A stretch of DNA of 64,000 nucleotides from Flexistipes sp. GTDB taxonomy: Bacteria > Chrysiogenota > Deferribacteres > Deferribacterales > Flexistipitaceae. Below the pieces are notes generated by a model. It searched no databases. It was not told the origin of the DNA and saw nothing but the letters and a program-made list of their open reading frames with translations. Of this stretch, positions 19,217 through 47,768 are shown one piece after another. The stretch is taken from assembly GCF_036172515.1 (NCBI RefSeq), contig NZ_JAXKVW010000001.1, positions 186,001 to 250,000 on the forward strand, given 5' to 3'. Every line of letters starts with the position of its first letter. Positions within the stretch are counted from its first letter, which is position 1. The translations under genes and the position numbers were made by a program.

Positions 19217-19523
19217 CTGGCGTCACCCCAAAAATTATATAAAAGTATTGTTTTACATATACTTATTCAAGTTTCGCACTTACACTGTTTTCACGTCTTT
19301 GTTCACCCTGTTAAATATCAGCTTCGCTGATTGCCTGTGGCATTTAACAGGGCAGGGAGTGAAAACGACGAAGCAATCTCACTATTTTTCTTGTTTTGAG
19401 ATTGCCACAACCCTGTTTCCACAGGGTTTCGCAAGGATGCCTATGGCTATCACCAGTCTTTTAGACTGGTGATAGTCGAAGTCAATCAATTTGTGTACAC
19501 AATAAAAAATGGGGTGACGTCAG
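19217..19523. repeat. 14-bp inverted repeat pair flanked by 9-bp direct repeats, enclosing a family 1 element
   Basis: CTGGCGTCACCCCA (19217-19230) and TGGGGTGACGTCAG (19510-19523) are inverted copies with 13 of 14 positions matching. Just outside are ATAAAATCC (19208-19216) and ATAAAATCC (19525-19533), with one extra T on the right. Inverted ends plus flanking direct repeats are the mark of an inserted element with a target duplication. The interior, 19267-19494, is a family 1 repeat, so this may be an element nested in an element. No transposase gene is present. The gap 19166-19559 holds nothing else I can identify. Confidence 0.6.
19267..19494 (-). mobile_element. family 1 MITE-like element, copy at 19.3 kb (one end degenerate)
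   Basis: This starts with the terminal repeat TCAAGTTTCGCACTT (19267-19281) and runs in the opposite orientation to the copy at 46277-46547, with long near-identical stretches. It includes the CCCTGTTAAAT/ATTTAACAGGG stem, the ACCCTGT-loop-ACAGGGT hairpin and ACCAGTC-loop-GACTGGT. The far end near 19479-19494 (GAAGTCAATCAATTTGT) is a decayed terminal repeat. No target duplication is recognisable next to it. Confidence 0.7.
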
Positions 19524-30745: not shown

Positions 30746-30879
30746 TCAAGTTTTGTACTTCGTTTGAGATTGCTTCGGCGTTTTCACTCCCTGCCCTGTT
30801 AAATGCCACAGGTAATCAGCGAAGCTGATATTTAACAGGGTGAACAAAGACATGAAAACAGTGTAAGTGCGAAACTTGA
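30746..30879 (+). mobile_element. family 1 MITE-like element, short (internally deleted) copy upstream of dnaA
   Basis: A 134-bp element. Ends are TCAAGTTTTGTACTT (30746-30760) and the complement of TCAAGTTTCGCACTT (30865-30879), with 13 of 15 matching. AGTATAAC (30738-30745) on the left and AGTATAAT (30880-30887) on the right look like a target duplication with one change. The interior keeps the CCCTGTTAAAT/ATTTAACAGGG stem found in the 271-bp copy but lacks the other hairpins. It ends 31 bases before the dnaA start codon. Confidence 0.8.
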
Positions 30880-44830: not shown

Positions 44831-46235
44831 CTTTCTTTTTAGCTGTGCTAAAAAAAATGATGTGATTGCACCCCCGGGGGCAGCATCTTTTTCTGTTGAC
44901 TACTTTATTACTAAAGCACCAGAGCCGAATGACGAAACAAAGCTGATTGATATAATAAGGGGTAACTATAAAACTGAAATAAAAAATAAGGCCAAGATAC
45001 TACTCGGAGGCTATTATTATAAGCAGGGACAGGATGAAAACAGCCTGTTAATTTTAGAAAATACTGCACCTACAGATAATCAGGGGCTGAACAATGCGGC
45101 ATATCTCTGGCTGGCGTCCCAGTACAAATTTTTTGGAAATGAGAAAAAAATGGAAAGCATCCTTGCCAAAATTAAAAAACCCGGGGAGATAACCAGTTAT
45201 ATAATCGGACAAACATGCGAGAAAGGAAAAGCATACTGTATTAAGCGTACAGACATCCCCGTTTTCATGGAGAAAGAGAAAACAGAACAAAAAACTGAAA
45301 GCAAAGAAACAGTGAAGCAGGCGGAAGAAAAAAAGGCAAATATTGTTAAAGAAAAACAGCCGAAAAGAGAAAAATTGAAAATTATTGCGCTAAACGGCAA
45401 TTTTGATAACCCGGCCTTTAAAGGGATGCTTTTGGCAGCAAGCCGGAACAACAGGACAGAGATAATAAGCATGGATAATCAGACGAAAAACATTGCAGCT
45501 GTTGATGTGGAAAATCTCAGTGTTGTGGCAGATGAAGAGATAAGTTTTAAAATAGACTATCAAAGTGCAATCGATGAGCTCCTCCATGATACGGATTTCA
45601 GCAGATGCACAGAGTTTGTGATTGGTGTAAACGACAGATTTGTTAGGGCAGGTGAATATACCAAACAGCGGCTGATGAAATTCTATGACAATGTTAGTAT
45701 CAGCAACTATGAGACGGAAGGTTTTAAGCATTTATATGAGAAGCCGGATAATGAAACTGTGACAACGAGATGTTTCATTGGAATAGGAAGAGAAGAGTCT
45801 ATGACTTCGTTTGTTCCGCTGGTTCGGTTTGTTTCCCCTGACAACAATGAAACTGAAATATTCCTTGTTACGGATATGTACACAGGAATGTATAAAAATG
45901 AGAATTTTATCGGTTATTTTGGGGATGTGAACATCTACACATATATTGATACTGTATATAATGCAGAAAGCAGAACATTTAAAAGAAAATATGAAGAAGT
46001 ATACGGCAAACAACCCTCCTTTAAGGCGTATATCGGTTATGACATGATTCAGTATCTTGAAACTAAATTTTTTAAAAATAAAGACAACTTATATGTGAGC
46101 TCCATCAAAAGTATTCAGTTGCCTGTTGTTGAAAGATATGTACATAAAATAAGAATCGATAATAACTATAACACGAGGTTTTTGTTTATGCCGGACGGCA
46201 AGCAGATTCCGCTGCTGTCAATTCCGGCTGAATAA
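44775..46235 (+). CDS. large lipoprotein with probable periplasmic-binding-like C-terminal domain (LpoA-like?)
   Basis: The 486 residues begin with a lipoprotein signal ending FLFSCAKK (lipidated Cys at about 24). Residues 55-150 look like short helical repeats (TPR/Sel1-like: NKAKILLGGYYYKQGQDENSLLIL). A Lys/Glu-rich linker (about 165-198) leads to an alpha/beta domain of about 280 residues with the run YEEVYGKQPSFKAYIGYDMIQYL, typical of type-1 binding folds. This architecture recalls LpoA-type activators of penicillin-binding proteins, but I cannot confirm it. Its start overlaps rsmG by 56 bases, in the position where parA often sits. Confidence 0.7.
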   Translation: MSEWKIRLRGLIPLLIIFSFLFSCAKKNDVIAPPGAASFSVDYFITKAPEPNDETKLIDIIRGNYKTEIKNKAKILLGGYYYKQGQDENSLLILENTAPTDNQGLNNAAYLWLASQYKFFGNEKKMESILAKIKKPGEITSYIIGQTCEKGKAYCIKRTDIPVFMEKEKTEQKTESKETVKQAEEKKANIVKEKQPKREKLKIIALNGNFDNPAFKGMLLAASRNNRTEIISMDNQTKNIAAVDVENLSVVADEEISFKIDYQSAIDELLHDTDFSRCTEFVIGVNDRFVRAGEYTKQRLMKFYDNVSISNYETEGFKHLYEKPDNETVTTRCFIGIGREESMTSFVPLVRFVSPDNNETEIFLVTDMYTGMYKNENFIGYFGDVNIYTYIDTVYNAESRTFKRKYEEVYGKQPSFKAYIGYDMIQYLETKFFKNKDNLYVSSIKSIQLPVVERYVHKIRIDNNYNTRFLFMPDGKQIPLLSIPAE

Positions 46236-46276
46236 CAATGAAAGCCGAAAAAGTGGTCAAGTGTATAATAATTAAA

Positions 46277-46547
46277 TCAAATTTTGCACTTCGCTTTGTC
46301 TAGCATTCGCTTCTAGCGAATATATAGAATGTTAAACATATTTACCAGTCTAAAGGACTGGTGCTAGCCATAGGCATCCTTGCGAAACCCTGTGGAAACA
46401 GGGTTGTGGCAATCTCAAAACAAGAAAAATAGAGAGATTGCTTCGTCGTTTTCACTCCCTGCCCTGTTAAATGCCACAGGCAATCAGCGAAGCTGATATT
46501 TAACAGGGTGAACAAAGACGCAAAAACAGTGTAAGTGCGAAACTTGA
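46277..46547 (+). mobile_element. family 1 MITE-like element, complete copy with perfect 9-bp target duplication
   Basis: A 271-bp element bounded by TCAAATTTTGCACTT (46277-46291) and the complement of TCAAGTTTCGCACTT (46533-46547), with 13 of 15 matching. ATAATTAAA occurs immediately outside on both sides (46268-46276 and 46548-46556). Inside are four hairpins: ATTCGC-loop-GCGAAT, ACCAGTC-loop-GACTGGT (46344-46362), ACCCTGT-loop-ACAGGGT, and an 11-bp stem CCCTGTTAAAT/ATTTAACAGGG (46462-46508) that encloses ATCAGC-GAA-GCTGAT. It has no plausible gene. Confidence 0.88.
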
Positions 46548-46606
46548 ATAATTAAATGATTCAAAGTTTACAATTTAAAGGTAGTAACGTGTTTTCTTGA
46601 TAAATT

Positions 46607-46697: not shown

Positions 46698-47768
46698 TTA
46701 TTTAACCATTTTGATTTCATAAGATGTCGAACCCAGACCGATTTTCTCAGCATGTTTTAATTGTATTATTGGGTCAATTTCCTCGTAAATTTTTCCGAAA
46801 GGATCAATACCGCCCGGAGAGTGTTTAGCAACCAAATCAAAGGAAGCTTTATCTATTGCCACAGGGTCAGTGGAAGCGAGGAAGCCCAAATCAGGACAGA
46901 CCGGAGTGTCATTAGCCGGAAAACAGTCACAAGTCGGTGCGACATCAGTAATAAAATTTAGGTATATCATTTTATTTTCAAAATGATCATGAATTGCTTT
47001 TGCATATTCAGCCATTTTCCGTTGAGTATTGTCTGAGCTTTCGTTCCAGTCTATTCCAATAGCACCTTCAGGGCAAACGGCTACGCATCGGGTACAACCG
47101 GTGCATGCTTGAGTTATTTCCGCCTTGGGTCCGAATACAATAGCATCAGCAGCACAGTTAGCTGCACAAAGCCCGCAGGAGGTACATTTTTCTTTATGTA
47201 CAACAGGCTTGGAGGTGGAGTGCATAATCAATTTACCCTGTCGGCTGGCACACCCCATGGAAATATTTTTTACAGCACCGCCTATCCCTGTCAACTCATG
47301 CCCTTTAAAATGCGAAACTACAACCATGGCATCAGCATTATAAATATCCGATGCAATTTTAACATGGTCAAGCAGTTCCCCATCTACAGGAATATCAAGA
47401 GAATTTTCCCCCCTTAGTCCGTCAGCTATAACAACCGGAATTTGAAAGGTTGAATAGTTAAAACCGTTAAGAAAAGCATTGTGCAGGTGGTCGACAGTGT
47501 TTGTCCTCATCCCTACATAAAGTGTGTTTGTATCTGTCAAAAACGGATTGCATTTCAACTGTTTAAGTTTTTCGATAACAGGCCTGAGATAGACCGGCTT
47601 TAAAAATGCTGTGTTACCGTATTCTCCAAAATGAGTTTTTACCGCAACAAGTTGTTTGCTGCCGTATTTTGATTTGGGGTCACATTTATTGAGAAGTCTT
47701 GTTATTTTACTCAACGGAGACTGCAGGCCTTTATTTTGCATGGTAGAATAAAAAACTTTTGATGACAT
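46698..47768 (-). CDS. DUF362 protein with two [4Fe-4S] ferredoxin motifs
   Basis: A 356-residue soluble protein. An N-terminal DUF362 part (about 1-180, with LVAVKTHFGEYGN and MVVVSHFKGHELTGIGGAVKNISMG-like blocks) is followed by two cluster motifs, CTSCGLCAANCAAD and CTGCTRCVAVCPEG (about 193-238). The end of the DUF362 part (DPVAIDKASFDLV) is typical. It is probably an electron-transfer or iron-sulfur protein of anaerobes; its exact function is not established. It is divergent from a nitroreductase gene 57 bases away. Ribosome site AAGGAGG. Confidence 0.88.
   Translation of the reverse strand: MSSKVFYSTMQNKGLQSPLSKITRLLNKCDPKSKYGSKQLVAVKTHFGEYGNTAFLKPVYLRPVIEKLKQLKCNPFLTDTNTLYVGMRTNTVDHLHNAFLNGFNYSTFQIPVVIADGLRGENSLDIPVDGELLDHVKIASDIYNADAMVVVSHFKGHELTGIGGAVKNISMGCASRQGKLIMHSTSKPVVHKEKCTSCGLCAANCAADAIVFGPKAEITQACTGCTRCVAVCPEGAIGIDWNESSDNTQRKMAEYAKAIHDHFENKMIYLNFITDVAPTCDCFPANDTPVCPDLGFLASTDPVAIDKASFDLVAKHSPGGIDPFGKIYEEIDPIIQLKHAEKIGLGSTSYEIKMVK

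Follow-up and report, generated by a model that had tools for sequence, protein, structure and literature searches.

The 271-bp element that spans exactly positions 46277-46547 of the window (the whole 64,000-nucleotide stretch of DNA analyzed here) is a mobile, non-autonomous element (MITE) with alternative hairpin modules, its cassettes probably being reassorted by ectopic gene conversion. This model is the best explanation of the evidence as a whole. We compared the genome containing the window (the own genome, a 2.47 Mb draft in 31 contigs) with a sister genome (G001, complete in one contig of 2,526,590 bp), which we took to be that of Flexistipes sinusarabici MAS10T (PMC3236037). In these two closely related genomes, insertion can be followed at individual sites, as can hairpin modules that were gained, lost, or exchanged.

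The element occupies an intergenic region between two convergent genes. A reading made from the sequence alone had described identical flanks, 15-bp terminal inverted repeats, an interior built of hairpins, and no transposase. We found ATAATTAAA at both 46268-46276 and 46548-46556, identical at 9/9 positions. The 15-bp ends were read correctly as to their consensus but are not perfect in this copy: TCAAATTTTGCACTT on the left and TCAAGTTTCGCACTT on the right (other strand) match at 13/15 positions, and many other family copies match at 15/15. The hairpin-rich interior was borne out by single-strand DNA folding (-58.5 vs -27.9 kcal/mol for shuffled sequences, z = -8.4), and no open reading frame of at least 80 amino acids overlaps 46277-46547. 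We scanned for 15-bp inverted ends (up to 2 mismatches) with perfect 9-bp repeats around them. The window holds one such case, while 20 Markov-simulated windows averaged 0.0, so that chance alone would not be expected to place a 9-bp repeat around ends of this kind. The parts of this copy, its neighbors, and the other copies in the window are as follows.

Stop at 46235: upstream neighbor, a gene of 486 aa.
46268-46276, no strand: left flanking repeat ATAATTAAA, single copy in the sister empty site; TAATTAA (7 bp) within it is probably the duplication proper.
46277-46291, plus strand: left terminal inverted repeat TCAAATTTTGCACTT, which differs from the consensus TCAAGTTTCGCACTT at 2 positions.
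46301-46379, plus strand: optional left cassette, TAGCATTCGC...GGCATCC, 79 bp long and hairpin-bearing; it interrupts the scaffold between GTC and TTGCGA.
46380-46385, plus strand: scaffold TTGCGA, REP-like left arm, which reads GTCATTGCGA in the 142-bp form.
46386-46405, plus strand: hairpin slot, occupied in this copy by the type A hairpin AACCCTGTGGAAACAGGGTT and swapped at orthologous sites.
46406-46441, plus strand: central inverted repeat GGCAATCTC ... GAGATTGC with an A-rich loop, the core of the REP-like dimer.
46459-46512, plus strand: optional right cassette of 54 bp, CTGCCCTGTTAAATGCC...GATATTTAACAGGGTGAA.
46513-46520, plus strand: scaffold CAAAGACG, which reads CGTCTTTG on the opposite strand and forms the CGTC-tagged end of the REP-like arm.
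46533-46547, minus strand: right terminal inverted repeat TCAAGTTTCGCACTT.
46548-46556, no strand: right flanking repeat ATAATTAAA (compare the sister empty site).
End at 46698, minus strand: downstream neighbor, a DUF362/4Fe-4S gene.
19267-19470, minus strand: second window copy, truncated (without element positions 1-67), 97.5% identical.
30746-30879, plus strand: third window copy, 134 bp, internally deleted; the sister genome carries this form there as well.

The family is large and confined to one genus. About 50 matches to the element DNA were found in the own genome, where the consensus end (up to 2 mismatches) occurs 86 + 89 times against 13 + 11 for the reversed control. Halving this excess of ends gives, very roughly, 75 copies. 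Matches beyond the short REP-motif type occurred in 3 of 60 genomes, all within the genus, and two other genomes of the order (L064, L065) contained the short REP-like motif only. An exact search for the terminal repeat in 385 genomes yielded three matches among the 382 others, all inside coding sequence, and these are chance matches. The MITE family is therefore restricted to the genus. A scan of a genome collection gave one named record (Deferribacteraceae bacterium UBA1873), and plasmid and phage collections searched for the element gave no match.

Copies consist of a REP-like scaffold, a hairpin slot with three alternative occupants, and the optional 79- and 54-bp cassettes. The commonest form is 142 bp long and folds as one long hairpin (z = -8.5). 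Besides type A, the slot holds CCGCCCACTTAA..TTAAGTGGGCGG or CCGAGCACTTAA..TTAAGTGCTCGG in other copies. The left cassette, which folds by computation, is missing from the 142- and 193-bp copies and carried by those of 218-281 bp; it also occurs without the family ends in sister genomes. The right cassette folds with z = -6.3 and joins the scaffold at CACTCC/CAAAGAC, and copies lacking it have TCG in its place. The sequence-only reading saw these interior hairpins but missed that they are exchangeable as cassettes.

Three hairpin types, with the left and right cassettes each present or absent, allow 12 combinations; ten of these were seen, on several arm haplotypes, a count that takes L084 and L095 as right-cassette carriers despite their orientation. 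Varied combinations were present within the complete sister genome alone. Which left arm a copy has is strongly tied to its right arm (Cramer's V 0.76, p = 0.0005), whereas the cassettes are nearly unlinked from the arms and from one another (V 0.03 for right cassette and hairpin, V 0.18 for hairpin and right arm); the two optional cassettes retain a weak association with the arms (p 0.02-0.08). All p-values are indicative, as the copies share descent and were partly gathered by similarity to the window copy. Slot types scored by hairpin-independent pattern matches, a pattern that leaves out copies bearing the left cassette, stood at 19 A : 2 B for the own genome, compared with 7:7 for the sister (p = 0.015). 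One hairpin of the finished sister genome, CCGCCCACTTAAGAATTTAAGTGCTCGG (L107:999-1150; G001:C1:817998-818149), is a hybrid. Its left half comes from one cassette type and its right half from another, the breakpoint falls within the hairpin, and the hairpin is mispaired at its base. It is likely a recombination product.

Sites occupied in both species allowed a direct comparison. Cassette content differs at 6 of 10 such sites; these are differences between two species, not polarized changes. At L050/L070, the sister alone has the right cassette (141 vs 192 bp, the rest of the sequence being identical), and at L025/L076, the own genome alone has it. The hairpin is swapped at L119/L103 and L126/L100, and several blocks differ at L008/L084 and L118/L095. 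Wherever the hairpin slot differed, the own copy was type A (4/4). Neighboring substitutions change together with the cassette at L126/L100 and L008/L084, and the exchanged stretch at L119/L103 and L050/L070 has no neighboring differences, which speaks against gene conversion unless its tracts at the latter sites were short or the donors nearly identical.

The MITE inserted into an A/T-rich target of the form T-N4/5-A between convergent genes and duplicated about 7 bp, as the empty allele described below shows. Its interior is a long imperfect hairpin built around an inverted REP-like pair (GTCATTGCGA..GCAATCTC / GAGATTGC..GAC). We propose that a transposase from elsewhere in the cell, present or past, would have recognized the ends of about 16 bp (YTCAAGTTTCGCACTT) and moved the element, and that dispersed copies would swap cassettes by ectopic gene conversion, the cassettes themselves not transposing. 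Against the model weigh the lack of a transposase with matching ends in the two families searched, the weak association that the optional cassettes retain with the arms, and the draft state of the own genome, since repeats may be mis-assembled in a draft. Linked arms together with nearly unlinked cassettes are predicted by non-crossover gene conversion between dispersed copies. The pattern suggests that the interior of a MITE can evolve by concerted evolution apart from its ends, which bears on sequence-based classification of such elements.

We considered whether the exchange could be an artefact of assembly, with real insertions whose interiors were filled in the draft by a wrong or majority copy. 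The fragmentation of the own genome would allow for this, and it is the majority type A that the own copy carries at all four hairpin-slot differences and in the skewed slot count given above. Against such filling, the left and right arms stay linked, and the own type A hairpins carry private substitutions (e.g., GGATAC at L118; GACCC..GGGTC at L025). The right-cassette differences also run both ways, and the varied combinations and the hybrid hairpin lie within a complete genome. An assembly artefact is thus an unlikely source of the pattern.

Alternatively, the MITE could be no more than a carrier of hairpin cassettes that are mobile in their own right, moved by a transposase of the REP type (Y1/RAYT) or by some other enzyme that acts on structure. 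Y1_Tnp genes exist in both genomes, one of them flanked by its own palindromes, and both optional cassettes are also found outside the family defined by these ends. No cassette flanks the RAYT-like gene in L219, however, and its palindromes differ in sequence. Private junction bases accompany both states of the right cassette (TCG vs CTGCC..GTGAA), unlike a simple insertion, and the breakpoint of the hybrid lies inside a hairpin. We regard independent cassette movement as quite unlikely, and reassortment by gene conversion remains our preferred model.

Insertion of the element could be demonstrated directly. At the window site in the sister genome, the left flank runs straight into the right flank with one ATAATTAAA, and this exact empty allele establishes that the element inserted. 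Of 25 own-genome sites tested, 15 were empty in the sister (the window site and 14 of 24 further sites, including L020, which was scored by eye). The sequence-only reading, which had called the element mobile and suggested looking for empty sites in relatives, held that mobility would be unlikely if copies in related strains always occupied orthologous sites and the 9-bp flanks were not duplicated elsewhere; the copies do not always occupy orthologous sites. Among sister sites other than empty, several were unresolved or partial matches, and L012 is a remnant. At the L018 site (L244), the sister has no clean empty site; the place is taken by another repeat of about 200 bp that is rich in hairpins and unrelated. 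Overall, the element is short and lacks a transposase gene, has terminal inverted repeats and a target-site duplication with an empty site, and belongs to a multicopy, dispersed family, as expected for a MITE.

Comparing filled with empty sites revised the length of the target duplication. The base touching the tip of the element often differs from the empty site, and the inner bases are exact. At L014, the filled allele reads CTTAAAAA (C TCAAG...CTTGA A) TTAAAAAT, with the inserted stretch in parentheses, and the empty allele reads CTTAAAAAT; 7 bp were duplicated, and one base on each side arrived with the element. Duplications measured 6 bp at L120 and L024 and 7 bp at L003 and L004. Across copies, C/T predominates as the outer base at the left end, and A/G at the right end. 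From these observations, we infer that the ends are 16 bp long (Y + 15) and that the duplication is 6-7 bp of the form T-N4/5-A. The perfect 9-bp target duplication described earlier is therefore real as a flank match, of which probably 7 bp are the duplication: the 9/9 match at the window site is partly coincidence, neighboring target bases extending it. The family duplication of 6-7 bp also makes it unsafe to narrow the parent transposase from 9 bp, as had been suggested, and a single copy with perfect 9-bp flanks overstates the duplication, which calls for caution in assigning parent families.

An IS that duplicates 9 bp, as the sequence-only reading had it, might still move the element if the mismatched outer bases were later mutations. 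The window site and a few others (e.g., L044, L100, and the second element in L114) match at 9/9, but the empty sites for L014, L120, L024, and L003 place the mismatch at the base next to the tip and agree fully with the inner 6-7 bp, and random mutation would not hit only that base. We judge a 9-bp-duplicating IS very unlikely. The strong hairpin and the intergenic position between convergent genes might suggest a structural RNA or a terminator repeat that does not move and was duplicated along with its surroundings. This is extremely improbable, since precise empty sites and target duplications refute immobility and an Rfam search of the element up to E = 1 gave no match; a role after insertion is possible.

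We searched for a transposase that could have mobilized the family. None with the family ends was found among the DDE_Tnp_1 and IS256 genes of three genomes. The only DDE_Tnp_1 gene in the own genome is an IS5-like pseudogene with unrelated ends, and its only IS256 gene also has unrelated ends. DDE_Tnp_1 families examined in two relatives (115 and 1 matches) had unrelated ends, as did IS256 (one gene each in the own and sister genomes, fragments in the third) where examined. The exact end search of 385 genomes revealed no autonomous IS sharing the family ends. The element was rightly called a non-autonomous MITE, and an IS encoded elsewhere, with ends unlike those of the DDE_Tnp_1 and IS256 elements examined, may have mobilized it. 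The IS load differs strongly within the genus, with 115 DDE_Tnp_1 matches in the sister vs one (the pseudogene) in the own genome.

One segment of the sister genome was considered as an autonomous element. It is 1260 bp long (G001:C1:1346346-1347605; L088:1847-3106) and bounded on both sides by exact copies of the 15-bp ends. Inside it lie the gene for a ParE-like toxin and, upstream of this gene, a small ORF that is probably its antitoxin; there is no transposase. The gene pair is possibly cargo between MITE ends.

We compared the family with known modular repeats. BOX elements of Streptococcus pneumoniae and S. suis are modular MITEs of 67-637 bp with terminal inverted repeats, target duplications, and variable modules, and in S. 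suis the end families boxAC and boxEF surround one shared boxB module (Croucher 2011, PMC3049150). Our family resembles them as an element bounded by inverted repeats with recombinable internal modules and in having end families that share modules. In BOX, however, it is mainly the number of tandem boxB modules that varies, whereas here the cassettes are single-copy and sit in fixed slots, and one slot takes alternative hairpins. This comparison, drawn from the published description, concerns architecture and makes no claim of membership. Correia/NEMIS elements of Neisseria come in two size forms, of about 107 and 155 bp, set apart by 50 bp of internal sequence (Delihas 2007, PMC2229807). They share with our family a small size, terminal inverted repeats, and size forms set by an internal insert, but one optional insert is described for them, and they have another host and other ends.

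The scaffold recalls the CGTC-tagged REPs, including RPE of Rickettsia and dRS3 of Neisseria, for which no dedicated transposase has been reported (Di Nocera 2013, PMC3733652); that paper does not mention Flexistipes or Deferribacter. As in CGTC REPs, the arms begin with CGTC/TGTC followed by a mostly AT-initiated stem and form inverted dimers (TGTCATTGC..GCAAT, CGTCTTTG..), and free scaffold-like copies (GTCATTGCGAGGAG..GCAATCTC) are present in the genome. The dimer here, however, lies inside transposon-like ends, and the scaffold departs from the CGTC REP layout of an 8-9-bp stem, a 4-5-bp loop, and a CCA tail. Because hairpins replace the loop and the tail is CTC, we call the scaffold REP-like and do not assign it to that class. 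The GTAG REP/RAYT arrangement, in which copies flank a Y1 gene, does not apply either. A RAYT-like Y1 transposase gene is present in the own genome (L219:948-1619, C25) with its own palindromes, CCCAATCTCACACTTACGAAGTGTGAGATT, so the genus has a REP/RAYT system; these palindromes are unrelated to the cassettes, and we rejected the gene as their mobilizer.

What appears to be new is a slot that can take different hairpins, even in copies at orthologous sites. A literature search with partial coverage found no account of such an arrangement; no paper joined Flexistipes with MITEs, and motif strings led to unrelated papers only. Cassettes also occur in elements with other ends, including a second MITE family of the genus with ends TTGGCACCCTCCC. 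A more far-reaching reading, rather unlikely in our estimation, is that several unrelated mini-transposon families share hairpin blocks as a common currency. The blocks would be exchanged in a structure-directed manner at fixed slots of a REP-like scaffold, faster than by ordinary gene conversion, with REP palindromes that lack a transposase spreading inside differing transposon ends. Such exchange may involve template switching, or an enzyme that guides it where hairpins are extruded. The family itself offers a possible answer to an open question about REPs, namely how CGTC-type palindromes with no dedicated transposase spread, in that they can ride inside transposon ends.

The TTGGCACCCTCCC family carries the same cassette kinds (L158-L160). 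It differs from the window family, for which no parent was found, in that a candidate parent IS is present in the sister: a 1436-bp DDE_Tnp_1 IS with the same ends (L199:514-1949) is likely the parent. Repeat families with the same hairpin cassettes on other scaffolds (GTCATCCCGAGCGAAGCCGAGGGATCTC type) were seen at L157, L158, L159, L160, and L171. At L031:1501-1989 (own genome C1:51898-52386), a TTGGCACCCTCCC MITE is nested in a left cassette and flanked by a 9-bp AAAAGACTG repeat.
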